Below are positions 5,820 to 22,587 of a stretch of 22,587 bases of DNA, piece after piece. Position 1 is the first letter of the stretch; each line of letters starts with the position of its first letter. Under the pieces are notes generated by a model. It made no database searches, had not been told where the DNA came from, and saw only the letters and a program-made list of their open reading frames with translations. Origin of the DNA: a virus. The translations under genes were made by a program, and so were the position numbers. The stretch is taken from the IMG/VR virus record IMGVR_UViG_3300042924_002068, positions 1 through 22,587 of that record. The stretch is one strand, 5' to 3'.

Positions 5820-5848
5820 TAAATATCCCCCATTTGGAAGTGTTTTTA
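5820..5848 (-). promoter_or_regulatory. Bipartite intergenic element, copy 1 (before tape measure)
   Basis: On the minus strand, box 1 TAAAAACACTT (5848-5838) begins exactly on the TAA stop of the upstream gene. It is followed by 11 nt and box 2 ATATTTA (5826-5820), then an A-rich stretch and the tape measure ATG 13 nt later. Three other junctions carry the same boxes with the same 11-nt gap. The function is unknown; a phage promoter or a translation-initiation element fits best. Confidence 0.6.
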
Positions 5849-6415
5849 TTCTTTATCTGACTTCGGATGACCCTTTGGTAATAAGTCATAATCACCGGTA
5901 TATTTTTTGTTTTCAGGTCTTCCATTTTTTACAATATAAAGAAACGCATTTACCCTTGCTAACGCCCATTGTTCTGATGATTTTACTGATGGTGAATGAG
6001 ATACATTGTACGCACCAATACCTCTTTGATATACAGATTTTAACATTCCAACATTTACACCATATCCCAACTTATCTTTATATCTTTCGTTAAAATTATC
6101 AGATTTTTCTTTGAGTATATTTTCTACTCTTTCGGATACTTCAGCACCTCTTGTGGTTGATGCATCACCTTTTGCAGTTCCTTCACCTTTTGGGTCTTTA
6201 TTTGGAGTATCAGATTTTGGTGCTTTCTTACTTTCTTTAATACCCCCTCTTTCACCGACTTCAGCAAAATCACCAATTGCTAATCCTTGAAGTATTGCTG
6301 ATTTCTTGGCATTCCTTTTACTACCCTCATTGTTGGGGGAGTAAGTATAACATTTACCCTCATCCCCCCATTTATAACCTGATTGGTTATTATCCTGACA
6401 ATCTTTAACTGGCAT
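5846..6415 (-). CDS. Phage head/structural accessory protein with a DUF5824-like C-terminus
   Basis: A 189-aa soluble protein in two parts. Residues 1-50 hold a small motif (YKWGDEGKCYTY ... AKKSAILQGLAIGD) that I recall recurring in phage structural genes. Residues about 55-95 are a charged, low-complexity Lys/Gly/Asp linker. Residues about 97-185 read 'KSDNFNERY ... YQRGIGAYNVSHSP ... WALARVNAF ... YDLLPKGHP', which matches my memory of the DUF5824 domain. The Arg-Gly-x-Gly-Ala-Tyr, Trp-Ala-x-Ala-Arg-Val-Asn and Asp-Leu-Leu-Pro residues are its visible core. Biochemical function is unknown. It sits just before the tape measure gene and 5 nt after the next small gene. Its stop codon is the first codon of the regulatory element at 5820-5848. 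Confidence 0.6.
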   Translation of the reverse strand: MPVKDCQDNNQSGYKWGDEGKCYTYSPNNEGSKRNAKKSAILQGLAIGDFAEVGERGGIKESKKAPKSDTPNKDPKGEGTAKGDASTTRGAEVSERVENILKEKSDNFNERYKDKLGYGVNVGMLKSVYQRGIGAYNVSHSPSVKSSEQWALARVNAFLYIVKNGRPENKKYTGDYDLLPKGHPKSDKE

Positions 6416-6420
6416 AATTA

Positions 6421-6648
6421 TTAATCTATTGGTATATTAATATCAAATGTAATTGGTTGTCCCAATACTACCTCTAAACTTTGGTCGTATATGATGTAAT
6501 AAAATACATAATAACTATCATATTTATATTCACACCAATTTTTTGTTTCATCGTCGGGTGAAACTGGTATTCCATAGTAATTATTACATAACTCAACAGC
6601 ATCAATTGCTGATTCTTCTATTAAATATTTGTATCCTGTTATTTCCAT
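6421..6648 (-). CDS. Small hypothetical protein next to tail appendage genes
   Basis: A 75-aa acidic, tyrosine-rich protein (MEITGYKYLIEESAIDAVELCNNYYGIPVSPDD...). The pattern 'Y.I.E.AI.A....N.YYGIP', a Trp-Cys-Glu-Tyr segment and 'LGQPITFDI' at the end resembles small proteins that accompany tail-fibre genes in other phages and may act as fibre chaperones. That role is inference only. It follows the stop of the appendage gene by a single base (TAA A ATG) and precedes the DUF5824-like gene by 5 nt, so the three are probably co-translated. No signal peptide or membrane segment is visible. Confidence 0.6.
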   Translation of the reverse strand: MEITGYKYLIEESAIDAVELCNNYYGIPVSPDDETKNWCEYKYDSYYVFYYIIYDQSLEVVLGQPITFDINIPID

Positions 6649-6649
6649 T

Positions 6650-7879
6650 TTAATATATTTGATAATAATTATTTTGATTTGATTGTATAGTATTTGATTG
6701 AGTTAAACCAACAACACCTGTATTAAAATAAATGACCTCACTTGTTAAACCTACATAATAAAGATTAGGGGCTTCTCTAGTACTTCTTCTATTACCACTT
6801 GCTGCAATACTACTATTTAATCCATTTTTGATATTGTATAGTAGGTTATTGGTCTTATCCCAATTTTGTCCGTTTATTGCTTTATTACCACTTGTTGCTG
6901 ATGTTGTAATTACTCCTGAAGTGAATACGGATGATCCACCAGCTTCCAATACATTACCCCAACTACCAGTAGCGTACGCTCCTAAATAGACATCTAAATT
7001 TTGACCCCATAAAGCATTATCACCAACGGTATAAACTTGAACTCCATTTGGTGCTGTTCCCAAGTTAATTAATGTAGTAAATAATGTATCGTTTGAACCA
7101 TCAAATGATAATGTTGTTCTTGTTGATCCCGTACCAGTTAAAGTTACTAAAGCCCCCGCATTTACAATTTTAGGTTGATTTACAGCAACGCCTTGTGCTA
7201 TATCTAATCCATTTCCTGTTTGATCGTACCAAGTTGTTACAAATCCATTATCGGTTCCTCCTGTTCCAACAAATGATAATAAAGATGCTGTATCAAGATT
7301 TACACCAGTAAATCCAATATCTTGTTCTGTGTTATCGCTACTTCTTCTAACCCTTAAAGCACTTCCACTATATGCGGATCTTAATTTTCTAACTGAAAAC
7401 GCAGCACTTGCACTATAACTATCTAAAATGTAAACTTGAGGACTTGGTGTTATTGTAGGAGTTGGAGTTAATGTTCTTGTAGGTGTTACTGTTGTGGTAA
7501 CAGATGGAGTTGGAGTTACTGTTTTTGTAGGAGTAACACTTGGAGTTATTGTTTGAGTTGGGGTAGGTGTGGGAGTTACAGGTTCAGAATTTATAAACTC
7601 ACCAGCATATGTGTAAAATGTGTTGAAATTATAAATATTTGGGTCACTTGTATTTTGGAAGAACGTATATTGATCCACAATATTTGGGTCAACAGAATTA
7701 TATGACTTAAAAAACTCATAACTATTTGTTCCTAAATGATTGAAGAAGTCATATTGGGATGAACTTACAAATCCATCACTAAATGTTAATCCATTAAAAA
7801 GGTCATATTGATTTGTTGCTCCCGATACCCCACCGATAACTCCCAAATCAGACCAAAAGGTATTCATATTAACTGGCAT
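6650..7879 (-). CDS. Tail appendage with Pro-Thr linker and arabinofuranosidase-B-like lectin domain
   Basis: A 409-aa modular protein. Residues 1-98 contain several 'YDFFN / YEFF / YTFF' aromatic repeats, possibly a docking region. Residues about 100-148 are a TPTPT-type linker. From residue about 151, 'SYSASAAFSVRKLRSAYSGSALRVRRSSDNTEQDIGF ... GFVTTWYDQTGNGLDIAQ ... NQPKIVNAG' matches the pattern of the alpha-L-arabinofuranosidase B catalytic-type domain (concanavalin-like fold), which is frequent in phage tail and Bacteroidota surface proteins. It probably binds, or less likely trims, surface glycans of the host. I cannot confirm catalytic residues. It lies among tail-fibre genes and shares its linker type with two other proteins in the window. 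Confidence 0.7.
   Translation of the reverse strand: MPVNMNTFWSDLGVIGGVSGATNQYDLFNGLTFSDGFVSSSQYDFFNHLGTNSYEFFKSYNSVDPNIVDQYTFFQNTSDPNIYNFNTFYTYAGEFINSEPVTPTPTPTQTITPSVTPTKTVTPTPSVTTTVTPTRTLTPTPTITPSPQVYILDSYSASAAFSVRKLRSAYSGSALRVRRSSDNTEQDIGFTGVNLDTASLLSFVGTGGTDNGFVTTWYDQTGNGLDIAQGVAVNQPKIVNAGALVTLTGTGSTRTTLSFDGSNDTLFTTLINLGTAPNGVQVYTVGDNALWGQNLDVYLGAYATGSWGNVLEAGGSSVFTSGVITTSATSGNKAINGQNWDKTNNLLYNIKNGLNSSIAASGNRRSTREAPNLYYVGLTSEVIYFNTGVVGLTQSNTIQSNQNNYYQIY
7436..7582 (-). repeat. Pro-Thr repeat linker in the 409-aa appendage
   Basis: Residues about 100-148 are built from TPTPT, TPTKT, TPTRT and similar units. On the plus strand this appears as a run of 'gttggagttactgt'-like repeats rich in G and T. 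Such linkers are extended, flexible and usually O-glycosylated in eukaryotes; here they probably just separate two domains. Confidence 0.75.
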
Positions 7880-7907
7880 ATTATATTATATTTTTGTTTA
7901 TTTTCAA

Positions 7908-8126
7908 TTATGTAATTGAATTAATATTTAATTGTTTAGGTTCATAGTCATTTAGCTCTAATTCTTTAATCCATAAAAAATTATTATTAGTACAATCATC
8001 TACTTCTTGTTGTGTTATAAAAAAATCCCCATTTATATCTTCAATTGGGTTAAAATAACAATTATCAAAATACATTTTATCTTGTATTTCTTCTTTTTGT
8101 TCTATTGATAATTTATATAATTTCAT
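7908..8126 (-). CDS. Small hypothetical protein between two tail appendage genes
   Basis: A 72-aa protein (MKLYKLSIEQKEEIQDKMYFDNCYFNPIEDINGDFFITQQEVDDCTNN...). It reads as a compact alpha/beta protein with 'YFNPI.D..G.FFIT..EV' and 'FLWIKEL...DYEPKQL'. I recall similar small proteins next to fibre genes in Bacteroidota phages, where they could be assembly chaperones or attachment adaptors, but no function is established from the sequence. It starts 10 nt after the upstream appendage gene. The downstream appendage begins 28 nt further on, with an A/T-only leader. Confidence 0.6.
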   Translation of the reverse strand: MKLYKLSIEQKEEIQDKMYFDNCYFNPIEDINGDFFITQQEVDDCTNNNFLWIKELELNDYEPKQLNINSIT

Positions 8127-8136
8127 ATTTAATATA

Positions 8137-8946
8137 TTATACTTGTCTTGATAATGTTGTTTGACATGCTTGAACTGCTGAATATAAGTTTGTGTTATCT
8201 GTTGCTGTTAATCCTGAACCCATAGAAACGAAACAATAATTTTGATTACTATATCCAGCACTATATGGTGAACTACCAAATAAAGTTGTATTTCCAATTA
8301 AAACACCATAATTAGATAATCCATTTCCACCACTTGTTCCATTTAATTGTAATGTCCCATTTTTATATATTTTAGGACTATTTGCCGAACTTTTTTCAAC
8401 AACAAAAAACCCTGCTCTTGTAGTATCGCTTGCCGTTATGGCTTCATAATTAAATCTAGATATTATTCCTGATGTACCACGAAGTGCTAATAATGATGTA
8501 TAATCTAAAGTATCACCAATTGTTCCAATATCAACATTATCACCTGCAGATGGGGTATTATTTGTATTAGAATAAATTGAAATGTGCTCATTATTTAATG
8601 TAGCATTATTCGCAGGTATATAATAAGTTTGAGCATATCCATTTGTCCCATTTGGATTAAAACCATTTGTTTGTGTAATTCCACCGTTAAAAGTTAATCT
8701 AAATGCTGCATCTAAATCTCTTGGATCTTTTAAGTTATATTTATTTGACGTTGCAGTACCCCCAACAAAAGGATATATTACATTTAATTTAGACCATAAT
8801 CCATCCGACTTCAAATCTATAACTAAAGTATTTATAGCACTTTCTATTGTTGGATCTGTATTACCAATCGCTGTTAAAAATGCTGCAGCATCAGGGTCTA
8901 ATGCTGTACCTACTGATTTAATAAATGAAAAAGGATATACAATCAT
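8137..8946 (-). CDS. Putative receptor-binding tail appendage
   Basis: This 269-aa protein begins MIVYPFSFIKSVG, then 'LDPDAAAFLTAIGNTDPTIESAINTLVIDLKSDGLWSKLNVIYPFVGGTATSNKYNLKDPRDLDAAFRL'. That N-terminal block, helical then beta, is shared by many phage tail proteins as I remember them. The remaining 170 residues are Ser/Thr/Asn/Gly-rich beta strands (HISIYSNTNNT, RAGFFVVEKSS, KIYKNGTL, NYCFVSMGSGL), consistent with a concanavalin/LamG-like jelly roll. The C-terminus (TDNTNLYSAVQACQTTLSRQV) is a short helix of the kind that closes such domains. It probably contributes to host recognition. Its ATG abuts the stop of the collagen-like fibre gene with no gap, so the two are likely translated together and may form one appendage. 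Confidence 0.65.
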   Translation of the reverse strand: MIVYPFSFIKSVGTALDPDAAAFLTAIGNTDPTIESAINTLVIDLKSDGLWSKLNVIYPFVGGTATSNKYNLKDPRDLDAAFRLTFNGGITQTNGFNPNGTNGYAQTYYIPANNATLNNEHISIYSNTNNTPSAGDNVDIGTIGDTLDYTSLLALRGTSGIISRFNYEAITASDTTRAGFFVVEKSSANSPKIYKNGTLQLNGTSGGNGLSNYGVLIGNTTLFGSSPYSAGYSNQNYCFVSMGSGLTATDNTNLYSAVQACQTTLSRQV

Positions 8947-11058
8947 TTAAGTAAAGTTTTGTATGTAAGAACCGAAATATTTAGATCCATCATAGACAAA
9001 TGTAAATACATCAAATTTATTGGCAGTTGCCGTCATAGTGGGTGGTGTCCCCCCCGCCCAACTCACTGTACCGGGCCAAGTAGTTGTGTTAGAACCACCT
9101 GATGATTGTCTTATTATTAATATGTAAGTTGCTCCAGCGTTTGGATTACTGAATGTAAAGGTTGTTGATGCCCCTAATACAAATTCTTGAGTATTACCAT
9201 TATTCCAATTTATAGTTGTGGCGCTTGTTGTTGTTCCTGTTGTTGGTAAGGTAATCCAAGTTTGTCCTGATGTAATTTGTACGTTACCAACATATGGAGA
9301 TGCGAATGATGTACCACTCGTACCAGCAGACCCATTAGTTCCGCTAGTTCCGTTATTACCACTTGTCCCCGAAGATCCATCTGTACCTGAACTACCATTT
9401 GTACCTGAAGTTCCATTAGTTCCACCAAGATTAAATACAAAATTATATTGTTTATTATTAATAAATACAAAAGGTAAGTTAACAACAGGATTTGATGTTA
9501 ATCCAACATTAAAAGTCATCCAAGTATGGGCTCCTGAAACATATGTATTAGCCGAAGAAGCACTATAGATTATTTGGTCTCCATTTTCTACACTTCCTGC
9601 TTGTATAAATAAAGCAGATCCTGAATTAACTTTTGATACAAGAAAATTCAAATAATTTTTATAATCTACACCTAAAGCAAAATAATAAAACGAAAATTGT
9701 GTAATACCAGATGCGTATGTAATATTTGATGCGTAAAATGGATCATAAATAACAGCACCATTAGAGTTCATTAAACTAGATCCTGGATTTGATGGTGATG
9801 TTGATCCTGATGAATATTGCCAAGTGTTCCAATATTGAGTTAATCCATCTGTTCCACTAGTACCATTAGTCCCTGAAGTTCCATTAGTTCCCGTCGCTCC
9901 AAGTGTTGCTAATATAATTTTATGATTGTTGGGGAATTGTGCTGTCCCCGCAGCACTTACCAAAGATACAGGAACTTCCCAATAATTAGTTGCTCCTGTA
10001 ATTTGTGTGGTTGATCCTGTTATAGTCCATACCTGATAATTTCCACTATCCGATTGGTCTTGAATTGTAATCTGTTGTCCTACTTGTAATAAAGATAAGA
10101 ATATATCTATATCTGTTATTGGGGTGTCTGTAAGATGGCTGATATTGATTTGGGTTGATGCGGTCATTGTAACATTATTCCAAAGAATATGTCCATTACC
10201 AGGATTACCTGATTGTGAGTTGTCTTTTGCTTCATAATAAAATATACTTGAAGACACACCATTTTGACCTGATGTACCATTCGTTCCACTTGTACCATTT
10301 GTACCCGAACTACCATCTGTTCCTGAAGATCCGCTAGTCCCATTATTACCTGATGTACCACTTGATCCTGAACTACCATTAGTTCCACTTGTTCCTGAAC
10401 TACCATCTGTTCCTGATGATCCATTTGTACCTGAAGTTCCGTTACTACCATTAGTTCCACTTGTTCCTGAACTACCATCTGTTCCGCTTGATCCGTTTGT
10501 TCCTGAACTACCATCTGTACCTGATGATCCATTTGTACCAGCAGTTCCTGCTAAACCACTTGTACCACTTGATCCTGATGATCCGCTACTTCCACTAGAT
10601 CCATCTGTTCCTGAAGAACCATTTGTTCCACTTGTCCCATCAGTTCCGCTTGTTCCTGATGTTCCTGAACCACCAGATGTTGATCCCGTAACTAAAATTG
10701 TATTACCTGAAGCATCTATTGCTAATAAATTTGAACTTGAACCTGAACTTAATCCTGAAAATACAATGGTATTACCAGGAGATACAACAATATCAAATCC
10801 ATTTGTATAATTCCCCTCATATAAGACCTGTCCTAAATCGGGGGTTGATGCTGTAAGACCTGATAATGAGATTGGATATATCCCATTGTCTGTTCTAATC
10901 CATAATGCGTCGTCAGCGACGTTACAATACATCTCACCAACAAATAAGTCAGTAGGGATCATCTCATTTAATGTAGTCCCCGTTGGTATGGTTGGAACCT
11001 GTCCTGTTTGACCTGTTCTCTTTAATAATAATCGTGAGTATTCTATCTTATCAGACAT
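8947..11058 (-). CDS. Collagen-like tail fibre protein
   Basis: A 703-aa fibre. Residues 1-70 (MSDKIEYSRLLLKRTGQTG...VPTIPTGTTL...DLFVGEMYCNVADDALWIRTDNGIYPISLSG) look like the virion-attachment end of phage fibres. Gly-X-Y repeats of GTSG/GSSG/GTDG/GTNG type fill residues about 129-268. They return briefly in the middle (DNA 9846-9901) and near the C-terminus (9311-9426). Globular beta domains separate the three blocks, one starting 'SIFYYEAKDNSQSGN' and another 'LTQYWNTWQYSSGSTSP'. The last 110 residues (SGQTWITLP ... FTFVYDGSKYFGSYIQNFT) form a beta-rich tip. The repeats predict a homotrimeric triple helix. The gene is preceded by the bipartite element at 11070-11098. Confidence 0.85.
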   Translation of the reverse strand: MSDKIEYSRLLLKRTGQTGQVPTIPTGTTLNEMIPTDLFVGEMYCNVADDALWIRTDNGIYPISLSGLTASTPDLGQVLYEGNYTNGFDIVVSPGNTIVFSGLSSGSSSNLLAIDASGNTILVTGSTSGGSGTSGTSGTDGTSGTNGSSGTDGSSGSSGSSGSSGTSGLAGTAGTNGSSGTDGSSGTNGSSGTDGSSGTSGTNGSNGTSGTNGSSGTDGSSGTSGTNGSSGSSGTSGNNGTSGSSGTDGSSGTNGTSGTNGTSGQNGVSSSIFYYEAKDNSQSGNPGNGHILWNNVTMTASTQINISHLTDTPITDIDIFLSLLQVGQQITIQDQSDSGNYQVWTITGSTTQITGATNYWEVPVSLVSAAGTAQFPNNHKIILATLGATGTNGTSGTNGTSGTDGLTQYWNTWQYSSGSTSPSNPGSSLMNSNGAVIYDPFYASNITYASGITQFSFYYFALGVDYKNYLNFLVSKVNSGSALFIQAGSVENGDQIIYSASSANTYVSGAHTWMTFNVGLTSNPVVNLPFVFINNKQYNFVFNLGGTNGTSGTNGSSGTDGSSGTSGNNGTSGTNGSAGTSGTSFASPYVGNVQITSGQTWITLPTTGTTTSATTINWNNGNTQEFVLGASTTFTFSNPNAGATYILIIRQSSGGSNTTTWPGTVSWAGGTPPTMTATANKFDVFTFVYDGSKYFGSYIQNFT
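10255..10674 (-). repeat. Main collagen-like Gly-X-Y repeat block
   Basis: About 140 residues in strict Gly-X-Y register with Ser, Thr, Asn and Asp at X and Y, almost no Pro and one 'GLAGTAG' interruption. Two shorter blocks of the same type lie at 9846-9901 and 9311-9426. Codon choice varies between units, so the DNA repeat is degenerate and not a young tandem expansion. Confidence 0.85.
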
Positions 11059-11069
11059 TCTTTTTTAGT

Positions 11070-11098
11070 TAAATATTTTAGTTTGATGATTGTTTTTA
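11070..11098 (-). promoter_or_regulatory. Bipartite intergenic element, copy 2 (before collagen-like fibre)
   Basis: On the minus strand, TAAAAACAATC (11098-11088) begins on the TAA stop of the 1195-aa tail gene. It is followed by 11 nt and ATATTTA (11076-11070). The fibre ATG is 11 nt further down. Box 1 differs from the other copies only in its last three bases. Confidence 0.55.
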
Positions 11099-14000
11099 CG
11101 AAGCACAGAAGTAAATTGCTGTACATTCAAGACAATCTCCAATATCAGTTCCCAATAACGTACCAACATATACCGGTGATCCTACTTTTTCCTCAATTAA
11201 TTCATAACATTGACCCCCAATTAACACTAATCTACCTGATAATCCATCAGATGATAAAATAACATAGGTGTCTGGCTCACTACAACAAGATGAAGCCAAG
11301 TACATTATACCTGATGATGGTGTTGGAGTCATTGTTTTTGTTGGTGTTGGACGTGGTGTTGATCCAATTGATGTGGTTACAGTAGGTGTTACAGTAGGAG
11401 TTAAAGTATTTGTAGGGGTTACAGTATTTGTAGGGGTTACTGTAGGTGTAGATGTTGTTGTTGGTGTGGATGTTATTGTTGGAGTAGGGGTTGGACTTAA
11501 TCCTGGTGTAGGAGTAGGGGTTGGTGTCGGTGTTTCTGTAGGAGTAGGACTTGGATCAATTGGTGTAGGAGGTTGTTGTTCGCTACCATCAATGATTGGT
11601 CTTAATTTACTATCCCCACCATAATTTCTTACAGATTGATATGTACCATCTATGATATCAATTAGATTTGTTTTACCAACATACATAACGGTTTCATAAC
11701 CCGCTTCTGTGATCGTTGGATAGTACCATCTAAACCCGTCAGAATTCAATACAAGGTTCCCTACAACGATTGTATCGCTCTCAATAGAGTTATGATCGTT
11801 TCCAATAATTAAAGCGTTTCTCGTGTTCTCATTTACAGAGTTTCCATCACCCATTACAAGTACATTTTCAGCACTTGAATCTACGAAGTTGGAACTACCT
11901 TTTACGACAACAGTATTTGAGTTGATAATGTTTTGATTTTTATTCATCTCAAATGGTCTGTTCTCCCCTATCGCTCCAACTCTTGCTTGAAATGATGGAG
12001 CAATAGCACCTCCTGATTGTGGGTATCCCGTTTGAATCCCCCAAGGCTCAAAAGGATTATTGATAATTGGTTTCTTCGCTTGACAATATCCATTGGTCCA
12101 ATACCCACCCCACAATAAACAACAATCTTCTGTGATTACTTGGTTAGATGGGGATACGAATATCCAACCATATTTAGTTTTCTTAATATAAACATCATCA
12201 GGACAATCAATTTCCGATGAAGGAACATCACTATTGTCGTTATAGAAGATGTCCAACTCATTTAATTTATACAAAACAACCTTGGTTGTTCTATCAATAG
12301 CGTTTGGATTGTAATCCTCAATTCTATTTACCCTCCAATAAGCATTATCAATCAAAATAATGTCTCTAAAATCAAATGTATTTAGATCACTTGGAGTTAA
12401 ATGGAAATAGGCTTCCAATAACTTGGCATTAACATCAGTAAGATCGTTCAATGTAGACAGATAAAACTGATTTATTAGGTTATTACTTGGACAACATAAC
12501 GCTGTATTGTAATATAATCTTGTAGAGTCCCCCCATTCTAATGAATATTCAGGATTTGTTGGGTCATCATACATACCAGCGTGAACATATGTAAACGACG
12601 AAGATATTGAACTCGTTGGAGTATCTCTAATTCTAATATCGTTAAATAGTCCTTGACTTTGTGTTATTTTTTTAACAAATAGAATACGAGGTTTTACTTT
12701 GAATGGTCTTAAATTTGAATTCGTATCTATATCAGCAAAGAATGGACCAATATATGGGGTCATAAAATTATCTGATACTGGCGTTGGAGCAATATCTAAT
12801 TTTATTTCTTTTACAGTCGTTGAGAAATCATTGATAAAATCAACATAAAAATCACCATATACTCTACCAGATTGTTCTGTGTAAGTTTTATTATAGTAGT
12901 CATTATCTTCGGCGTACGTAAATACATATGATTTAACATCCAATTCACTCATTGGAGTTTGTTTTACATCTTGATCATAATCCAATTTATGTGTCCAATC
13001 ACGAACTAATTGTTTTGATTCGTAGAAATCATCCTTCGGTTCAATGATGAGGTTATTAGGTAGAGCAGGATCATCACTTACAACCAAGTTAAACATCTTC
13101 ACCACATTGATAAAAAGGTCTTTCATCTTGATTGCCGGCAACATTGAAGATAAATTTAATAATGCGTTGATATTATAATTTATATTTGTTGCTGGTTTAA
13201 CCTGTATTCTGTTTGGAGTACCCCCTTTTGTTGTTGGATATGTTACTGCGGCAACCAATACTCTATCAGTATTTGATTGCCATTGAACTGATGTTGGGTA
13301 ATTCATACTAAATTGTACTCTAATTTCATCACCAACATTTAACCATACTGAACCAATATTCATATTCATTACATATTCTTGATCGGACAACCACCAACCT
13401 GGCATATAACCTGTTGATGGAACTGTGGTATTACCAAACGCACTCCTACCTGTTGAGTTGGCTAATGGTGGGGTAATTGTTAAGTTATTAGTTGTGACTA
13501 ATACTGTTGTTGAACCATTGGCTGCTACTTTATAAACTCTAGCATTGTATGTAATTGATCCTGATAAATACTTAAATGAAGATCCTTGTTCGTGTCTATA
13601 ATACATTTGGAATGCTTGATCCACATCTATTTCATAGAAACCTGCTGTTGAGGCTTTATATCTTGATAAGTTATTTGGTGTTCCCAAATATATCCATTCG
13701 TTATTTGGATCCTGATATTGTTGATTAGATATAATAGATGTCTCATCACTATATGGAACATACCAAGAACCATTTGTATTATTTTGCCACCAATTATTTG
13801 ATTTTTGTAACATTGGACTCATAGCAGTAACCCCACATAAAAGACATTGTGGTGATAATGGTGATCCAAAATAGTATGATTGTAATCCATTATTTAATGG
13901 TGGTGCCATTACCCAAACAAAAGAGGTTACTGGTTTAACCCCCACTCTTACAGTTCTATCAAAAATACTTTGACTATCATAGGTTGGGGTTTCAGTGGGC

Positions 14001-14683
14001 ATAACTAATGCCTTAAAATAATCTGAATTAAAGAAATTGGATGTATAGGTATATCCCGCCCATTGGAACATTTTATCCATCAATGTCTTCAAATACACAG
14101 CAGGGTTTAAGTCAAACGCATTAAAAGTCCTATTTGATACTGAATTAGCCCCATTTACAATAATTGGATAGATATACCCCGTACCTGGTGATACAAGTGT
14201 GCTCTGCCCAAATACTGTAATTATATTATCATATGATAATTGAATTGTGGCAACATTACGATAGTGGTCGTATTCGTCCAAATTTAACTGATCTAAATAA
14301 TAATCACCAAAAGCAACCATTATATTTTTGAATAAACCTGTTACTACAATCTCATATTCCACCAATTTTTGGTTGGTAATGATATTAAGTAATTGTAGAT
14401 TTCCGTAAAATACTAACTCATCCCCAATCAATACTTGAACTGGTAGTGATTTCTTTGGGTTAAATGAACTTTCAGATATATCAATATTGATCTCAAATAT
14501 ATTTTGGAAGAATGAATTGTTATTTGGTGTACCTGGTAATAGGATAGTTTTGGAAAATGATGCTCTCTTGGAACCAATATCTTCAATATCATCTATCTGA
14601 TACGTCAATGAAATATCAAAATCATCGTATGTATCCAATTGCCTACCTTGTGATATAATCTTAAATTGATTAATTGCTGCCAT
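11096..14683 (-). CDS. Large tail-tip/baseplate protein with beta-helical repeats, Pro-Thr stalk and Cys-rich tip
   Basis: This 1195-aa protein is modular. The N-terminus (KIISQGRQLDTYDDFDISLTYQIDDIEDIGSKRASFSKTILLPGTPNNNSFFQNIFEIN) resembles tail-tip hub proteins of Bacteroidota phages. Residues about 100-900 are mixed beta. Residues about 923-976 hold three roughly 16-residue repeats (NTVVVKGSSNFV, NVLVMGDGNSV, NALIIGNDHNSI), suggesting a trimeric beta-roll or helix. Residues 1036-1125 are a Pro-Thr stalk. Residues 1126-1195 are a Cys-rich tip (SSCC, GQCYELIE, DCLECT, YFCAS). It probably forms the tail tip and displays a small adhesion module. It starts on the base where the upstream 651-aa gene stops (14683), showing translational coupling. 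An alternative is a Tal-like hub without protease activity. Confidence 0.65.
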   Translation of the reverse strand: MAAINQFKIISQGRQLDTYDDFDISLTYQIDDIEDIGSKRASFSKTILLPGTPNNNSFFQNIFEINIDISESSFNPKKSLPVQVLIGDELVFYGNLQLLNIITNQKLVEYEIVVTGLFKNIMVAFGDYYLDQLNLDEYDHYRNVATIQLSYDNIITVFGQSTLVSPGTGYIYPIIVNGANSVSNRTFNAFDLNPAVYLKTLMDKMFQWAGYTYTSNFFNSDYFKALVMPTETPTYDSQSIFDRTVRVGVKPVTSFVWVMAPPLNNGLQSYYFGSPLSPQCLLCGVTAMSPMLQKSNNWWQNNTNGSWYVPYSDETSIISNQQYQDPNNEWIYLGTPNNLSRYKASTAGFYEIDVDQAFQMYYRHEQGSSFKYLSGSITYNARVYKVAANGSTTVLVTTNNLTITPPLANSTGRSAFGNTTVPSTGYMPGWWLSDQEYVMNMNIGSVWLNVGDEIRVQFSMNYPTSVQWQSNTDRVLVAAVTYPTTKGGTPNRIQVKPATNINYNINALLNLSSMLPAIKMKDLFINVVKMFNLVVSDDPALPNNLIIEPKDDFYESKQLVRDWTHKLDYDQDVKQTPMSELDVKSYVFTYAEDNDYYNKTYTEQSGRVYGDFYVDFINDFSTTVKEIKLDIAPTPVSDNFMTPYIGPFFADIDTNSNLRPFKVKPRILFVKKITQSQGLFNDIRIRDTPTSSISSSFTYVHAGMYDDPTNPEYSLEWGDSTRLYYNTALCCPSNNLINQFYLSTLNDLTDVNAKLLEAYFHLTPSDLNTFDFRDIILIDNAYWRVNRIEDYNPNAIDRTTKVVLYKLNELDIFYNDNSDVPSSEIDCPDDVYIKKTKYGWIFVSPSNQVITEDCCLLWGGYWTNGYCQAKKPIINNPFEPWGIQTGYPQSGGAIAPSFQARVGAIGENRPFEMNKNQNIINSNTVVVKGSSNFVDSSAENVLVMGDGNSVNENTRNALIIGNDHNSIESDTIVVGNLVLNSDGFRWYYPTITEAGYETVMYVGKTNLIDIIDGTYQSVRNYGGDSKLRPIIDGSEQQPPTPIDPSPTPTETPTPTPTPTPGLSPTPTPTITSTPTTTSTPTVTPTNTVTPTNTLTPTVTPTVTTSIGSTPRPTPTKTMTPTPSSGIMYLASSCCSEPDTYVILSSDGLSGRLVLIGGQCYELIEEKVGSPVYVGTLLGTDIGDCLECTAIYFCAS
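11309..11578 (-). repeat. Pro-Thr repeat stalk in the 1195-aa tail protein
   Basis: About 90 residues of TPTPT, TPTNT and TPTVT units, the longest of three such linkers in the window. It contains the block 'PTPTPGLSPTPTPT', which has a close match in the 280-aa protein, also at the DNA level (around 11494-11517 versus 17662-17685). Confidence 0.8.
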
Positions 14684-16638
14684 TAAAATCTGAATTCGTT
14701 ATTACTTACTCTCACATTAAATGTATATGAGAATAATTGTTCGTTTATGTTCTTGTATATTTCCGTTTTTGGTTGGTCCAAATGGCAGTTAAATAAACGA
14801 TTATCAGGGGTTTGAATATATACGGAAGGTGATTGTACCAAATCCTTAATTAAATCTCTCTCAAACTCGTATAACCACCCTGAATTAAGTGTTAATGATT
14901 CTCTACTTCTCTCATAGAAAACCTTTTCCCCCACCCCATAATCATCATAGTCAAATGTATTATCTTTCCACGTACCTTCTTGTTGGTAATATGTCTTCTT
15001 CTCACTCTCAATATAATCACGAGACATATAAATAAAAGGGTAAGATATAAATGATCCATACTGATCCTTCCACATTAGGTGGTAAATCTCATACATAGAA
15101 CAATCTCCGTTCAATTTGAAACAGATTTTATTACTTGATTGTGATGGAACACCCGTAGCATTGTATGTATTCACCGTATAACTCGCCACATTATTGATGT
15201 AGTTGGTAAATGTATTGGTGTAGTTCACATAGGTGGAAGCACTGATCTGTGCCAATCCAATCGGCATATAATAGTCAACACTTGACGTAGGCTTTACAAT
15301 GTATAAATTACCTAATTGAGCTCCCGCTGAATTGAAGAATGTATAGAACATACCATCAGCAAAATTAGCCGTATTTTGATGTACCAATAAAAACCCTATT
15401 GTTGATGGCTCAATTCTATAACACGTTGATCCTGATAAAATGGTCGATATATTATTACCACTGAATGGTCTGTTCTGAATTACATATGGATCAAATGCTG
15501 TGATTGAATAATCAGGTCTATTGATGTGAGCATTATACACACAGAACCCACTATAATTAACATACTCCTTCAAGTTCTGTTGTAATGCGTTCCCTGTAAA
15601 TCTAATAAGTCCTGAAATTGGAACAGAGTTTCCTGCGAAACCAAGGTTAGTTTTAATTACCACACCATATGTTGGATCCACATAGATCGCTGTAATTGTA
15701 GCGGTTGTATTATATTGTGGTTTTGGAATACCATAGATAAATCCAGGTGTTGATGAGTTCCCTTGAAACGCCTTGGCTATTGTTAAGGATGTTAATGTTG
15801 GGGCTGGTGTAGCGAATACACTTGTGTTTCCATTATAAAAAGGAATGGTTACTTGACCCGCCACTTGTAATGGTTGACCAACAGTAAATGAATGTGGTTG
15901 TGATGAGTTAAATGTCGCTTTGGGAGCAACACCACCACTACTTGTAATACTTGTATAAGCCCAAGCAACAGGATTTTGTTGGATCTGAATAACGTCCCCC
16001 ACTTCAAATGGTATACCTGTTAGTGTTGTGATTGTTGAATTATAGAAACCAACATTACCCGCCAAGAATATATTGTCCTCAAACTCAAAGACAAACTGAC
16101 CTTCAGATCCCGCTACAATACCAAAACATTTTTTTGTATCTGGTCCATCATAAGTTAATGAGTAATTGGTAGATTGACCTGTTAGGTTTTGACTCACCAG
16201 ATCCTTCATAACATTACTCATATCCAATTTACCATAACCTTGTAAGTCAGGGGTTAGTTTCCACTTATAGAATTTTGAAACTATAAGTGGAAATGTAGCA
16301 AATAATATAGAAGGGAATAGATCAATTACAAATTGTGTACTTGAAACTATAAATACTATGTTGTAATAACCTGTCTGATTATTGGTTGTAGCCGGATCAT
16401 TCAATAGAATTGTATCCCCCCTCACAAATGTATGTGGAGTGGAACTTGTTAATTCAGTATATATCGTTGATTGATACGAATATGGAGCGGCTGACGTTAC
16501 GTTTACAGTATCATATACTGCGTTAATGATGTACTTATATTGTTGTACCTGATCGTAGTCAGTATCAAATACTTTAAGTGGTACGGCTGAATAAGCCGCC
16601 ATAAATTGATGAGGTAATGTAATAGCGGAATAACCCAT
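14683..16638 (-). CDS. Putative tail/baseplate structural protein
   Basis: A 651-aa beta-rich protein. The beginning (SAITLPHQFMAAYSAVPLKVFDTD) and the end (CSMYEIYHLMWKDQYGSFISYPF ... SLTLNSGWLYEFERDLIKDLVQSPSVYIQ ... NCHLDQPKTEIYKNINEQLFSYTFNVRVSN) resemble a family of tail proteins of Bacteroidota phages and prophages found beside the tail-tip hub. Two copies of a small barrel-like module are visible: residues about 64-107 (TPHTFVRGDTILL...GYYNIVFI) and 244-290 (QPHSFTVGQPLQV...FYNGNTSVF). It shares its last base region with the start of the 1195-aa gene and follows a copy of the bipartite element. A distal tail or tail-tip role is likely; a major tail tube function is unlikely at this length. 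The coding DNA contains a perfect 13-bp inverted repeat. Confidence 0.6.
   Translation of the reverse strand: MGYSAITLPHQFMAAYSAVPLKVFDTDYDQVQQYKYIINAVYDTVNVTSAAPYSYQSTIYTELTSSTPHTFVRGDTILLNDPATTNNQTGYYNIVFIVSSTQFVIDLFPSILFATFPLIVSKFYKWKLTPDLQGYGKLDMSNVMKDLVSQNLTGQSTNYSLTYDGPDTKKCFGIVAGSEGQFVFEFEDNIFLAGNVGFYNSTITTLTGIPFEVGDVIQIQQNPVAWAYTSITSSGGVAPKATFNSSQPHSFTVGQPLQVAGQVTIPFYNGNTSVFATPAPTLTSLTIAKAFQGNSSTPGFIYGIPKPQYNTTATITAIYVDPTYGVVIKTNLGFAGNSVPISGLIRFTGNALQQNLKEYVNYSGFCVYNAHINRPDYSITAFDPYVIQNRPFSGNNISTILSGSTCYRIEPSTIGFLLVHQNTANFADGMFYTFFNSAGAQLGNLYIVKPTSSVDYYMPIGLAQISASTYVNYTNTFTNYINNVASYTVNTYNATGVPSQSSNKICFKLNGDCSMYEIYHLMWKDQYGSFISYPFIYMSRDYIESEKKTYYQQEGTWKDNTFDYDDYGVGEKVFYERSRESLTLNSGWLYEFERDLIKDLVQSPSVYIQTPDNRLFNCHLDQPKTEIYKNINEQLFSYTFNVRVSNNEFRF
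16258..16293. repeat. Perfect 13-bp inverted repeat inside the 651-aa tail gene
   Basis: Arms TTTCCACTTATAG (16258-16270) and CTATAAGTGGAAA (16281-16293) are perfect reverse complements around a 10-nt spacer. It encodes residues 116-127 and would fold as a hairpin in the mRNA. The 12-mer TTGAAACTATAA that overlaps one arm (16275-16286) recurs at 16341-16352. Confidence 0.8.
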
Positions 16639-16652
16639 AGAATATTTTTAAT

Positions 16653-16681
16653 TAAATATTCCAAATACACAAGTGTTTTTA
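16653..16681 (-). promoter_or_regulatory. Bipartite intergenic element, copy 3 (before 651-aa tail protein)
   Basis: On the minus strand, TAAAAACACTT (16681-16671) begins on the stop codon of the neck gene. It is followed by 11 nt and ATATTTA (16659-16653), then ATTAAAAA and the ATG 14 nt away. Box 1 is identical to copy 1. Confidence 0.6.
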
Positions 16682-17191
16682 TCCCCCCTTATCAAATTTA
16701 ATTTGAGCCGCTTTGTAGTTATTCTCCAACATCTTAACGATATTATCTACCATTCTCTGTTCGTAAATCCTATTAGCGTTCCTTGAGGTCTGTATGATGT
16801 TGATTGTCTTCCTAACTACATTGGTTGGTTTGATCCCAAACTTATGAATATTCTTTTGTGCTCCATATGCTGCTCCTTCAGGTAATCCTTTTACTCTAGC
16901 CCATCTTAACAATGGTCCGATTGGGGGATATTTCGCCCCCGCTCTTCTCCCCTGATCCACATACTTTAAGTAATCCTCACTCAATAATTGAACTTGAATA
17001 CCTTGAGCCGTTGGTTGTAATCTATAATTGATTGATCTAATTAACCTACCTGTCGCCACCTTTGGATATGACCTTAAACCAGGTCTTGATGGTACGGTAT
17101 TATTCCTCAATAAGCCTACAAGGATCTTAACATAATCCTTCCCAAATTGATTGGCTAATTTAGTATCAAAGAATAACATTTGATTAGCCAT
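16679..17191 (-). CDS. Neck / head-tail joining protein, HK97 gp10-like
   Basis: This 170-aa basic protein would cap or join the tail to the head connector. Residues 47-54 (TGRLIRSI), 74-85 (YLKYVDQGRRAG) and 88-102 (YPPIGPLLRWARVKG) match the 'TG.L..SI ... Y..fvd.GR..G ... PPi..i..Wa..KG' signature of HK97 gp10-like tail-completion proteins. Residues about 110-130 (GAQKNIHKFGIKPTNVVRKTI) match the 'a..I...Gi.P...l..ai' ending. Its ATG overlaps the last 8 nt of the small coiled-coil gene upstream, so translation is coupled. It is next to the tail-terminator-like gene, the normal neighbour for this family, though both lie far from the head genes here. Confidence 0.78.
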   Translation of the reverse strand: MANQMLFFDTKLANQFGKDYVKILVGLLRNNTVPSRPGLRSYPKVATGRLIRSINYRLQPTAQGIQVQLLSEDYLKYVDQGRRAGAKYPPIGPLLRWARVKGLPEGAAYGAQKNIHKFGIKPTNVVRKTINIIQTSRNANRIYEQRMVDNIVKMLENNYKAAQIKFDKGG

Positions 17192-17375
17192 TATTTAATT
17201 GTTTTTTTAACAAATTAAGTTGTCTCTCCAAGTCCATTATTTTCAAATCTCTCTCCAATAATTTCTTTTGTGAGATCAAATCTTCCATTTCTTGTTGAAT
17301 TGGTTGAGGTTCTTTCTGTGCTGTTTTTGTGTCGTTGTGGATGGTCACCCCATCTCTTACTATTCTTATTCCCAT
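17184..17375 (-). CDS. Small coiled-coil hypothetical protein
   Basis: A 63-aa protein, MGIRIVRDGVTIHNDTKTAQ..., with a helical, heptad-like C-terminal half (about residues 28-60, EMEDLISQKKLLERDLKIMDLERQLNLLKKQL). It is not recognised as a named family. The frame is supported by an ATG start 20 nt after the stop of the tail-terminator-like gene, by the 8-nt coupled overlap with the neck gene, and by normal amino acid composition. A competing frame over the same bases needs a GTG start inside the upstream gene and has a less protein-like composition. It may be a minor connector or assembly factor. Confidence 0.6.
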   Translation of the reverse strand: MGIRIVRDGVTIHNDTKTAQKEPQPIQQEMEDLISQKKLLERDLKIMDLERQLNLLKKQLNNG

Positions 17376-17395
17376 ATATATTTAATTTAATTTTA

Positions 17396-18238
17396 TTAAC
17401 AAGTTCCACCAATTTCTAAACCTCCATTTGCTGTGAAATATTTTGGCGATCCTGATGATTGTGATAAAACAATCCATCCAAAAAATTGATTAGTTAAAGA
17501 AGAATTAGTCCATAATGTTTGACCTTGATTGACCGTTGGTATTGGTTGTGATGAATATACTGTTAATTGAGTAGTTGAAACACAAACAGTATTTATACCT
17601 CCACTATAAACCAAAGCACTAAATAAAGTTTGTGTTGAAGTAGGTGTAGGAGTAGGTGTTTGACTTAATCCTGGTGTTGGAGTAGGAGTTAATGTTGGTG
17701 TAATACTTGGTGTAGGAGTTGGGGTAGGTGTATCAAAGTAAGGATTTTCAGGTATGATACAGTTCACTTGTTTTAATTTTAATATAATTCTCGCTACAAC
17801 CCCCGTCGCTTTATCCGTTGTCTCATCAACAGCGGGATAGAATGTTACGTCTTGTGAGATGAATGCCCCATATTGTTGCCAGTTTTGAGCCACATCTGTT
17901 AATAAATCCTGAAGAACCTGTAACATATCACTCAATATCTCTTGTGAGTTGTCTGATGGGAAACCATTAACATCCAAATAATTCTCTTGGATATTGATCT
18001 TATCCATAAACATAATGGAAAACGATAATTCAGGTATAGCCGTCTTGTTATGAACCGCTTGACCAATGGTATTATCCTCATTCATCATCACCCACATATA
18101 GGGGAAATTCATTTGACGGGATGTTCCAATGTCGTAAGGTTCCCCAAATCCGAAATCATTCAAAAAATAGTTATTCTGTTGGAACAATTGGAACCATTTA
18201 ATTATCTGATTTAATGTTATTACATTTGTTATTGCCAT
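17396..18238 (-). CDS. Tail-terminator-like protein with Pro-Thr linker and C-terminal add-on domain
   Basis: A 280-aa protein. Residues 1-163 (ITLNQIIKWFQLFQQNNYFLNDFGFGEPYDIGTSRQMNFPYMWVMM ... LSFSIMFMDK ... SQEILSDMLQVLQDLLTDV ... VNCIIP) resemble tail-completion/terminator proteins of Bacteroidota phages: helix, 'FG.GE', 'yP.mwv', 'sDmlqvl.Dl' and a closing 'C.IP'. Residues about 170-203 are a TPTPT linker. Residues about 204-280 are a small domain with two Cys (VCVSTTQLTVYSS ... GQTLWTNSSLTNQFFGWIVL ... GLEIGGTC), a type I recall as an appended module in flavobacterial proteins. The ATG overlaps the stop of the frameshift extension by one base. A tail terminator carrying a displayed add-on domain is unusual. 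Confidence 0.62.
   Translation of the reverse strand: MAITNVITLNQIIKWFQLFQQNNYFLNDFGFGEPYDIGTSRQMNFPYMWVMMNEDNTIGQAVHNKTAIPELSFSIMFMDKINIQENYLDVNGFPSDNSQEILSDMLQVLQDLLTDVAQNWQQYGAFISQDVTFYPAVDETTDKATGVVARIILKLKQVNCIIPENPYFDTPTPTPTPSITPTLTPTPTPGLSQTPTPTPTSTQTLFSALVYSGGINTVCVSTTQLTVYSSQPIPTVNQGQTLWTNSSLTNQFFGWIVLSQSSGSPKYFTANGGLEIGGTC
17630..17731 (-). repeat. Pro-Thr repeat linker in the 280-aa protein
   Basis: About 34 residues of TPTPT units including 'PTPTPGLSQTPTPTPT'. The DNA around 'gacttaatcctggtgt' (from 17662) matches the stalk of the 1195-aa gene (from 11494) almost base for base, pointing to past recombination or copying between the two linkers. Confidence 0.75.
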
Positions 18239-18504
18239 TATACTGCGTTTTTATTCTTTAATTCTTCTTTATTCTTAAAATACCCCAACCAATTCAGACA
18301 ATGAACATAAGCCATCTCATATACCTCATCCTCCTTTAATCGTAATTTATCCATCAATGTGAATACAAAGTCCAACCATACATATCGGTCGTCCATTTTC
18401 TTCTTATCCCCCAACTTCTTCTTAAACCTATCATTATCGGTTGTTACTTCTCGTTGTTTTTGGAAGAGACCCTCGTATTGTTGGGTTATAAATCTCTTCC
18501 AGTT
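18238..18504 (-). CDS. -1 frameshift extension of the tail assembly chaperone (gpGT-like part)
   Basis: After the slippery site the -1 frame is open for 88 codons and ends with TAA at 18238-18240. It reads NWKRFITQQYEGLFQKQ ... KMDDRYVWLDFVFTLMDKLRLKEDEVYEMAYVHCLNWLGYFKNKEEL. It is helical and charged, with the 'VYEMAYVHCLNWLGYFK' pattern recalled from long-form chaperones of Bacteroidota phages. No in-frame start occurs before the ATG at codon 37, so the bulk of the extension is best reached by frameshift. The fusion would be 178 + 88 = 266 aa. It fills the otherwise gene-free stretch of about 250 nt before the tail-terminator-like gene and overlaps that gene's ATG by one base (TAATG). Confidence 0.75.
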   Translation of the reverse strand, partial: NWKRFITQQYEGLFQKQREVTTDNDRFKKKLGDKKKMDDRYVWLDFVFTLMDKLRLKEDEVYEMAYVHCLNWLGYFKNKEELKNKNAV

Positions 18505-18514
18505 AAAAAAAAAC
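18461..18514 (-). promoter_or_regulatory. -1 programmed ribosomal frameshift signal (slippery heptamer plus hairpin)
   Basis: On the minus strand the codons are AGT TTT TTT TTA ACT, giving the canonical heptamer U UUU UUA (18510-18504). Two nucleotides later a perfect 9-bp stem begins: TGGAAGAGA (18501-18493) pairs with TCTCTTCCA (18469-18461). Inside it CCC (18485-18483) can pair with GGG (18472-18470). Pairing begins closer than the usual 5-9 nt spacer, so the lowest pairs may be open during slippage. Confidence 0.78.
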
Positions 18515-19037
18515 TGAAGATGTGGTTAATATCACTGATCTTTATTTTCCTAAACTTCTCATCACGAGCCATAAAACTCGTATTATACTTCTCTAAACTA
18601 CCATCTTCTTTCTTCTTACGTAGAAATACACATAATAATTTACTCATTACCTTCTTTATATCCCCTCCCGCTGACTGAATGATTGTCTCAATGGAAATAA
18701 CCTCACCAGCGGTGTATTTATTAAACTCTGAATAGAGGAAATATTCTTCCCCATCCACAATAATTGACTCTTTCTTTAGTTCCTCAATCGGTTCATAAAC
18801 AAAAGCCAGTGACTTAACTAACTCTTTGAAGTCATTGTAGTCAATCTGTTCTATAATCTCTCTATCAATCCCTGATAATTGGTGGATCAATTCAAATGAA
18901 TAGAACATTCCTTCGTGAACACTCGTATCAATTGAGTAGATATTAGTGAATTGTTCTATCGTAACCTCACTCCAATCACTTGGAAATTCGTAATCTTTTA
19001 CTTCTTCGTTGTCTACTTGTACGCTAATCTGTATCAT
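18486..19037 (-). CDS. Putative tail assembly chaperone, short form (gpG-like)
   Basis: This protein is 183 aa from the ATG at 19037. A longer frame reaches a TTG at 19070, but that start is weak and would cover part of the conserved leader. The zero frame ends shortly after the slippery run with '...HIFSFFLTGRDL'. Residues include 'YEFPSDWSEVTIEQFTNIYSID', 'LIHQLSGIDREIIEQIDYNDFKELVKSLAFVYEPIEEL' and 'LCVFLRKKKEDGSLEKYNTSF', a helical acidic protein in the style of phage tail assembly chaperones. In lambda the G/GT pair recruits tail tube protein onto the tape measure. Position directly after TerL, and not next to the tape measure, is unusual. The call rests on the frameshift architecture more than on sequence identity. 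Confidence 0.65.
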   Translation of the reverse strand: MIQISVQVDNEEVKDYEFPSDWSEVTIEQFTNIYSIDTSVHEGMFYSFELIHQLSGIDREIIEQIDYNDFKELVKSLAFVYEPIEELKKESIIVDGEEYFLYSEFNKYTAGEVISIETIIQSAGGDIKKVMSKLLCVFLRKKKEDGSLEKYNTSFMARDEKFRKIKISDINHIFSFFLTGRDL

Positions 19038-19055
19038 AATTCTCTTTATTAAAAA

Positions 19056-19084
19056 TAAATATCTCCACAAGGGAAATGTTTTTA
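19056..19084 (-). promoter_or_regulatory. Bipartite intergenic element, copy 4 (before chaperone-like gene)
   Basis: On the minus strand, TAAAAACATTT (19084-19074) begins on the TAA stop of TerL. It is followed by 11 nt and ATATTTA (19062-19056); the chosen ATG at 19037 is 18 nt further down. The element supports 19037 over the TTG at 19070 as the start. Confidence 0.58.
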
Positions 19085-21580: not shown

Positions 21581-21918
21581 TACGATTTAATTTTTTTCTT
21601 ACGTGAACATTTGGTACAACCTACCTTTTCCGCCTCTACTACATCCACATCTATTTCAGGTGTAACCATCTCAAATAATGGATCTTCGTTTGGTGGAGGT
21701 ATGTTTGGTATTACCTCTTCAAATATCTCTTGATCAGCCAACCAATTTAGTATCATACCTTGTCCGTGTTTCATTTGAGCGGAACATTTGGTACATACAG
21801 TATACTTGGGATCAATCTTCTCTCTAATCACATTCTCCATATCTAAAGCGTGTGATTTGGTCATCCTATTTAATGTAGCTAAATAATTACAATGTTCGTA
21901 AAATTCTTTTGTGATCAT
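21580..21918 (-). CDS. Hypothetical protein with two CxxC pairs (possible zinc binding)
   Basis: This 112-aa protein has Cys-Thr-Lys-Cys at residues 42-45 and again at 101-104, separated by an acidic, proline-containing stretch (IPNIPPPNEDPLFEM...). Two CTKC knuckles could form one zinc site. The C-terminus is very basic (SRKKKIKS), suggesting nucleic-acid contact. It is the first gene of the packaging operon and lies just after a non-coding region with inverted repeats, so a DNA-binding or regulatory role is attractive but unproven. The leader 'ATATTTAATTAAAAA' resembles box 2 of the bipartite element. Its stop overlaps the next ATG by one base. Confidence 0.62.
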   Translation of the reverse strand: MITKEFYEHCNYLATLNRMTKSHALDMENVIREKIDPKYTVCTKCSAQMKHGQGMILNWLADQEIFEEVIPNIPPPNEDPLFEMVTPEIDVDVVEAEKVGCTKCSRKKKIKS

Positions 21919-21965
21919 ATTCTCTTTTTAATTAAATATATCACTATTTGATTTGTTGTGAAGGA

Positions 21966-22012
21966 TGTGGGTAGGTAATTAAAAAATCAGATAAACTACT
22001 GAACTACCCACA
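21966..22012. repeat. Inverted repeat TGTGGGTAG / CTACCCACA with nested hairpin
   Basis: Perfect 9-bp arms at 21966-21974 and 22004-22012, 29 nt apart. Within the loop TCAG (21987-21990) can pair with CTGA (21999-22002). No U-run follows on either strand, so it is not a standard terminator; an operator or structured RNA is more likely. Confidence 0.7.
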
Positions 22013-22051: not shown

Positions 22052-22111
22052 AATGGGGGGGTTAGAAAATAAAAAAATACTATAAACAAAGACAATAGCT
22101 ACCCCCCCATT
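22052..22111. repeat. G7/C7 inverted repeat, possible terminator
   Basis: Arms AATGGGGGGGT (22052-22062) and ACCCCCCCATT (22101-22111) are perfect complements with a 38-nt A/T-rich loop. AG/CT adds two more pairs past a bulge. On the minus strand the stem is followed by a pyrimidine-rich 'CTTTTCTACCATTTTTCT', so it could terminate transcripts from the genes at the right edge. The large loop is atypical. Confidence 0.6.
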
Positions 22112-22159: not shown

Positions 22160-22366
22160 TTATTCTTCCTTAAAAATAATCTGATCTATCTTTTCAAATC
22201 TACCTAATAATTCTTTTGAGTATCCATTCTCCACGAAATCATTTAATACGGTTGTAATTTGTACGATCTCAACCATTGTTAATTCTTTTGATTTGATGTT
22301 CATATAGTCAATCAGGAATTTTAGGTTGGATTGTGTCGCTATTTGTTTTGATGTTGATTGTGCCAT
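22160..22366 (-). CDS. Small hypothetical protein
   Basis: A 68-aa, mostly helical protein, MAQSTSKQIATQSNLKFLIDYMNIKSKELTMVEIVQITTVLNDFVENGYSKELLGRFEKIDQIIF. It has no recognised domain, signal peptide or membrane segment. It begins one base after the stop of the gene at the right edge (TAA A ATG) and is the last gene before the non-coding region. It is probably part of the upstream (early or middle) transcription unit and not of the packaging operon. Confidence 0.65.
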   Translation of the reverse strand: MAQSTSKQIATQSNLKFLIDYMNIKSKELTMVEIVQITTVLNDFVENGYSKELLGRFEKIDQIIFKEE

Positions 22367-22367
22367 T

Positions 22368-22587
22368 TTATAATTCGTTTAATAATTCCCACTCATTTAT
22401 ATCGTTGTAATGTTTCTCTTCATTACAATATGTATTATCATATAATTCATTAAATATTTCAACGGCTAATTCGTCTCTGGTGTTGTTTATCCAAGATGAA
22501 AATTCAGGGTCTTTCATCTGTTCCATTAACTGATTATTCATTTCAGCGGCGATGGCGTCTCTAGCGTACTCTATTGAGTTGTAGTGA
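22368..22587 (-). CDS. Hypothetical protein, partial (N-terminus beyond right edge)
   Basis: The last 72 codons of a gene cut by the right edge, ending TAA at 22368-22370. The readable part is HYNSIEYARDAIAAEMNNQLMEQ ... WINNTRDELAVEIFNELYDNTYCNEEKHYNDINEWELLNEL. It is acidic and helical. Two stretches look alike (YARDAIAAEMNNQL and TRDELAVEIFNELY), suggesting a duplicated helical hairpin. No family is recognised. In-frame Met codons exist near the edge, so a short start cannot be excluded, but the frame is open to the boundary. Confidence 0.6.
   Translation of the reverse strand, partial: HYNSIEYARDAIAAEMNNQLMEQMKDPEFSSWINNTRDELAVEIFNELYDNTYCNEEKHYNDINEWELLNEL

Follow-up and report, generated by a model that had tools for sequence, protein, structure and literature searches.

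The DNA analysed here (the window, 22,587 nucleotides of the virus record IMGVR_UViG_3300042924_002068) carries a short two-box sequence in front of several of its genes, and the question it raises is what this element does and what would read it. A scan of the window recovered four exact copies, all on the minus strand (5848-5820, 11098-11070, 16681-16653 and 19084-19056), where an earlier note made from the letters alone had placed them. That note described a longer first box, separated from ATATTTA by 11 nt. The part of this description that is kept is TAAAAACA (box 1) and ATATTTA (box 2) at a 14-nt gap, but the three additional letters of the noted box 1 are weakly conserved in relatives. 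At the same junctions in relatives, boxes and gap are retained and spacers and flanks diverge. The ATG lies 13, 11, 14 and 18 nt past box 2 in the four copies, within the range of 11-18 nt given before. The weaker fifth copy that had been noticed before position 21918 reads TCACAACA-N14-ATATTTA (21961-21933) and is a conserved variant at its own junction. The earlier claim that each copy starts on a stop codon holds for all four copies in the window, where the upstream ORF ends on the TAA of box 1, but family-wide for only 30 of the 76 non-redundant sites. Because the overlap is limited to these sites, the stop codon is, on this comparison, common but dispensable, a matter of economy of space and not a functional part of the element.

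The relatives belong to a large family. The 651-aa protein is encoded at 24 IMG/VR loci, at 57-100% identity, and four records (G005, G008, G009 and G011) are 29.9-30.1 kb long, carry a repeat of about 100-127 nt at or near their ends and have the same gene order, which indicates a genome of about 30 kb that closes on itself. In 71 records (816,529 bases), exact copies of TAAAAACA/ATATTTA on the sense strand number 66 at gap 14, two at gap 15 and none at any other gap; the opposite strand of the same records has none at gap 14. For comparison, a Markov-4 simulation gave at most 0.7 exact copies per gap. Matches at gaps 20 and 23 were considered as a second spacing and set aside, since most of them trace back to a small number of homologous sequences.

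The element also appears to be specific to this family. A scan of IMG/VR with an extended pattern returned 85 stretches, and all records with at least two exact copies carry the structural genes of the family; the records without family genes have single matches, or one exact match and one match with 1 mismatch. We rejected the idea that the motif is general to phages of these hosts: the Flavobacterium psychrophilum phage Fpv5, whose terminase is 52% identical, has no copy within 1 mismatch. Taken together, the family membership of all multi-copy records and the lack of the motif in Fpv5 suggest that it belongs to the family and not to phages of such hosts in general. Searching INPHARED with the 651-aa protein or the sigma-like protein described below gave no named relative, only one weak match (E 0.1). 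A genome scan for hosts yielded a single contig, L184 (CACVAR010000201.1, 29,154 bp), a distant member of the family found in a Sulfurovum MAG; either it was probably mis-binned there or it points to a broader range of hosts.

Some contigs are near-duplicates, and sites were therefore reduced to 76 clusters with less than 75% identity outside the boxes, from which the logo was made. The logo consists of T (.83), A (.89), A (.91), then A, A, A, C and A/G, followed by 14 free nucleotides and A T A T T T A. The last base of box 2 is A, not G, in 96% of the sites, and in 88% the late box 2 is preceded by A or T. There is a third conserved element, overlooked in the earlier note: the sixth base past box 2 is A in 96% of the 76 clusters. 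This A (logo position 35) is 97% conserved where the ATG is at least 10 nt from box 2 and, in all seven non-redundant sites where the ATG follows at a gap of 5, it is the A of the ATG itself; we saw no ORF starts at gaps 0-4 or 6 among the family sites. The distance from box 2 to the ATG ranges from 5 to more than 20 nt, while the position of the A stays fixed to box 2. In the simplest reading, this A would be the +1 and the seven gap-5 mRNAs would be leaderless. Counting back from it places box 1 at -34 to -27 and box 2 at -12 to -6. The latter agrees with the sigma-A boxes of F. psychrophilum, at -12 to -5 (PMC9723704), and a second element near -33 is possible in Bacteroidota promoters (PMC7366714).

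When orthologous gene starts were mapped, sites within 2 mismatches preceded the tape measure gene in 5 of 5 cases, the fibre gene in 17 of 17, the 651-aa gene in 23 of 30, the 183-aa gene after the terminase in 42 of 52, and the 112-aa gene that heads the methyltransferase-terminase block in 33 of 53. The 124-aa gene before the portal gene, outside the window, has a site within 2 mismatches in 15 of 21 cases and within 3 in all 21. Most other genes have about none, and the sigma gene none in 56 starts within 2 mismatches. Hence, six conserved gene junctions, mostly structural, carry the element in relatives. Upstream of the fifth copy the window has two strong hairpins (Table 1), as expected at a junction between the end of one transcript and the start of the next. 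Putative HNH-type endonuclease genes of 148-153 aa, about 50-55% identical to each other and assigned to this type from a reading of their sequences, lie at three different candidate late promoters (G005 17864-18310-, G008 1196-1657+ and G009 28065-28514-), as if insertions favoured such sites.

Table 1. Positions of the element, its predicted start sites and neighbouring features (window coordinates unless a record is named)
Feature	Position	Strand	Remarks
Box 1 TAAAAACA, putative tape-measure promoter	5841..5848	-	TAA = stop of ORF 5846-6415
Box 2 ATATTTA, tape measure	5820..5826	-	predicted +1 A 5814; ATG 5806; 934-aa tape measure protein 3002-5806
Box 1, putative promoter of collagen-like tail fibre	11091..11098	-	TAA = stop of ORF 11096-14683
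Box 2, fibre	11070..11076	-	predicted +1 A 11064; ATG 11058; 703-aa fibre 8947-11058
Box 1, putative promoter of 651-aa / 1195-aa gene pair	16674..16681	-	TAA = stop of ORF 16679-17191
Box 2, 651-aa gene	16653..16659	-	predicted +1 A 16647; ATG 16638; 651-aa protein 14683-16638
Box 1, putative promoter of 183-aa gene after large terminase	19077..19084	-	TAA = stop of terminase ORF 19082-20269
Box 2, 183-aa gene	19056..19062	-	predicted +1 A 19050; ATG 19037; 183-aa protein 18486-19037
Variant box 1 TCACAACA, fifth copy	21954..21961	-	kept as such at same junction in relatives
Box 2, fifth copy	21933..21939	-	predicted +1 A 21927; ATG 21918 (112-aa protein), head of methyltransferase-terminase block
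Hairpin, 11-bp stem	22052..22111	-	-20.1 kcal/mol, z -3.3; resembles a terminator closing the sigma-gene transcription unit; lies upstream of fifth copy
Second hairpin	21966..22012	-	-16.9 kcal/mol, z -2.8; immediately upstream of fifth copy
68-aa ORF	22160..22366	-	in block after sigma gene
Second-class promoter-like sites	G005 22984, G009 18020, G001 10936, L062 547 and others		upstream of first sigma-block gene

The sigma-like factor that the earlier note proposed to look for has a candidate just beyond the edge of the window. Contig L079 shares 3,226 nt with the window at 99.8% identity, and thus represents the same phage; its gene for a 176-aa sigma-like protein (4186-4707), a homologue of L047 6996-7526, ends 160 nt past window position 22587. 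The gene was found in every relative long enough to cover the region, and the protein is 62-91% conserved where the motif is. A profile search extended this to 60 viral loci (37-100% identical), of which almost every one also has the motif, in the same orientation; the loci with the gene and without the motif are short fragments, most of them with the TCACAACA variant. Matches to sequence families are weak: PHROG 1740 (RNA polymerase sigma factor) matches 9 of 36 family members, with a best E of 1.6e-4, and Pfam Sigma70_r4 matches two of them (E 0.003); none of the 36 matched a sigma-70 region 2 family, and the protein had no sequence match in the PDB. Its AF2 model (pLDDT 86) has helices at 15-81 and 100-175 around a low-confidence stretch at 84-96, i.e., two helical domains and a linker, and so presents the ECF-like trait of sigma2 and sigma4 domains joined by a flexible linker. 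The best 50 PDB matches of the model are all sigma factors, with modest E-values of 0.05 and up, and one structural match is to sigma-E region 4 on -35 DNA (rmsd 2.2, TM 0.75 of target). The predicted fold and the co-occurrence with the motif make this protein the best candidate for the reader of the element.

A cultured relative has a similar arrangement. Nonlabens phages P12024S and L were reached through the portal protein (25% identity), and gp33 of P12024S, annotated as sigma-70 region 2, is located shortly before the terminase. The P12024S genome (L185, NC_018271) has sites at 145, 2997, 5378, 23928, 25167 and 26768 of the form AAAACA-N15/16-CGTTA(A/C)TA, followed by 4 nt and the ATG, in short AAAACA-N16-CGTTAATA. 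One of them is syntenic, preceding a 125-aa gene and then the portal gene, as in the family of the window's phage. Compared with that family, P12024S keeps the AAAACA box and a similar gap, whereas box 2 is rewritten from ATATTTA to CGTTAATA, and the 176-aa profile does not recognise its sigma protein (E 0.9), which has diverged too far. ECF promoters typically have AAC near -35 and CGT near -10. PMC9723704 mentions the CGT box as well. We found no earlier description of the P12024S gene-start motif in the literature searched.

The element had been described as unlike the Bacteroidota promoter TTTG/TAnnTTTG. This is true of box 1, which sets the class apart from host promoters as far as sequence goes, but less so of box 2, as TATATTTA is close to TAnnTTTG. 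The features of Bacteroidota sigma-A promoters are absent from the logo: box 1 has the core AAAACA without TTTG, and box 2 is ATATTTA. Host-type TTTG-N20-TATATTTG promoters do occur in the same genomes (G005 17832-, G009 13778-, G006 2485-, G011 1209- and G002 439-), which supports a Bacteroidota host. In G009 and G006, the host-type site stands head-to-head with a late site before the 124-aa and portal genes (G009 13793+). There is also a second promoter-like class, upstream of the gene that opens the sigma block. It is made of TTTT, about 13 nt, T-ATATTTA-T and the same +6 A, with no TAAAAACA; the fifth-copy junction of G005 and G009 resembles this class instead. A promoter-like site of the TTTT type at the sigma block suits a cascade in which this block would be expressed first.

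Could the copies be AT-rich repeats produced by chance or composition? The window is about 66% AT, and when it is scanned alone with 3 mismatches allowed the pattern is at chance level (9 found against 7.2 expected); the case therefore rests on the exact copies and on their conservation in relatives. There, exact copies are far above the Markov-4 level, at one gap, on one strand and at orthologous junctions, across relatives whose sigma proteins are down to 37% identical. The gap and strand profile rules out a chance origin against the simulation, and we give this explanation practically no weight. The earlier note had also allowed for an element acting in the RNA, as a processing site or a translation enhancer. 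Such a function would fit the placement near start codons, on the sense strand only, and the A-rich stretch past box 2, which is like flavobacterial translation starts. However, the conserved A is tied to box 2 and not to the ATG, whose distance varies, about six genes have the element, out of some 45, and box 1 lies inside upstream coding sequence at some sites. Nor did we find a consistent RNA fold at the element (z between +0.9 and -1.9 for five sites) or an Rfam match for it. These results disfavour an RNA-level role, which we regard as very improbable, and we are confident that the element is a promoter.

The other alternatives concern the reader of this promoter. A second sigma-like protein, of 217 aa, is encoded on the other strand (G005 21671-22324- and relatives) and its model has a C-terminal alpha/beta pattern. 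It too has a sigma-factor-like fold and matches PHROG 1740 (E 0.0014), but it diverges fast, with 18-46% identity between lineages, while the motif is constant, and a search at E 0.1 did not find it in the near-complete records G063, G065, G067 and G045, all of which retain 2-4 sites together with the 176-aa protein. Its lower conservation and its non-detection in these four records favour the 176-aa protein, and it is improbable that the 217-aa protein reads the element in its place. As for a T7-type RNA polymerase, 13 records gave no PF00940 match, and neither did the control genomes. The main rival is a hybrid promoter, in which host sigma-A would read box 2 and the +1, and box 1 would be bound by a phage activator or a sigma4-like domain that replaces the -33 contact, which we take to resemble the T4 MotA/AsiA style of appropriation. 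Since the sigma block shares ATATTTA and the +6 A under a different upstream element, without box 1, host sigma-A might indeed read box 2; the closeness of TATATTTA to TAnnTTTG, the A or T that usually precedes the late box 2 and the host-type promoters of the same genomes point in the same direction. Yet, sigma2-like and sigma4-like domains are both present in the phage protein, P12024S keeps box 1 while its box 2 becomes CGTTAATA and so departs from the -7 element of the host, and the late box 2 almost always ends in A instead of G. We consider the hybrid unlikely.

The comparative evidence thus favours the phage-specific late promoter, one of the options in the earlier note, and we think it probable that the 176-aa phage sigma reads this promoter together with the host core RNA polymerase. 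The motif, its spacing, its conservation by strand and junction, the +6 A, the sigma-like fold and the co-occurrence are seen in the sequences; we infer promoter activity, start site and reader from them, and the label "late" from gene content. In the mechanism we propose, the two-domain (sigma2-sigma4, ECF-like) phage protein would associate with the core RNA polymerase of the host and recognise both boxes, box 1 (core AAAACA) as the -33/-35 element and box 2 as the -7/-10 element, 14 and rarely 15 nt off. RNA would start at the conserved A six nucleotides past box 2, resulting in 5' leaders of about 5-15 nt, or in leaderless mRNA where the ATG lies on that A. Transcription would then switch from the sigma-gene block, which has another element upstream, to the late units, five or six in number and mostly structural. 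A more detailed version is tentative. It posits a dedicated sigma family and a two-step switch in which the -7 box and the start are shared and the -33 box alone separates late from earlier units; the late class would mix leaderless and short-leader mRNAs, and AAAACA would be kept in cultured flavobacterial phages with a rewritten -7 box (ATATTTA to CGTTAATA).

Phage specificity factors that turn the host RNA polymerase to later promoters are known from SPO1 (gp28 and gp33-34) and T4 (gp55), large myoviruses of other hosts. The T4 late promoter has a single TATAAATA box at -10, no -35 element and a sliding-clamp activator, whereas here two boxes are kept and box 2 is ATATTTA. Two traits of phage-sigma-dependent late promoters, a fixed-spacing motif before late or structural blocks and an encoded sigma-like factor, are present in this family. 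The late promoters of phage 7-11, GTAAtg-16-aCTA, are read by the phage sigma SaPh711_gp47, and gp36 of phiEco32 uses single-element promoters with a start 6-8 bp past the element (PMC8948821). As in our proposal, these phages pair a small sigma of their own with the core RNA polymerase of the host and need no phage RNA polymerase, and phage 7-11 has bipartite promoters before several late blocks. In contrast, consensus, host phylum and sigma family differ, some starts appear leaderless here, and what is biochemically proven there is predicted here. The Bacteroidota sigma-A promoter, with TTTG at -33 and TAnnTTTG at -7 (PMC7366714, PMC9723704), shares the geometry, the -7-like box 2 and the A-rich start, but has TTTG where our element has TAAAAACA, and a G where box 2 ends in A. 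We found no late promoter described for Bacteroidota phages in the literature searched, although such absence is not proof. The kind of promoter is known from phiEco32 and 7-11; relative to this literature and the collections searched, what appears new is the class of sequence, the family of sigma factor and the phylum of the host.

Little seems to have been mapped of gene timing in Bacteroidota phages. Our analysis yields a precise consensus for the promoter, predicts where it starts and names a candidate sigma, all conserved across a large family of uncultured phages, and the cultured P12024S offers a bench system. If confirmed, promoter and sigma would form a compact set of their own for Bacteroidota, separate from others, and the annotation of late operons in flavobacterial phages that are uncultured could be aided by the AAAACA-box motif.
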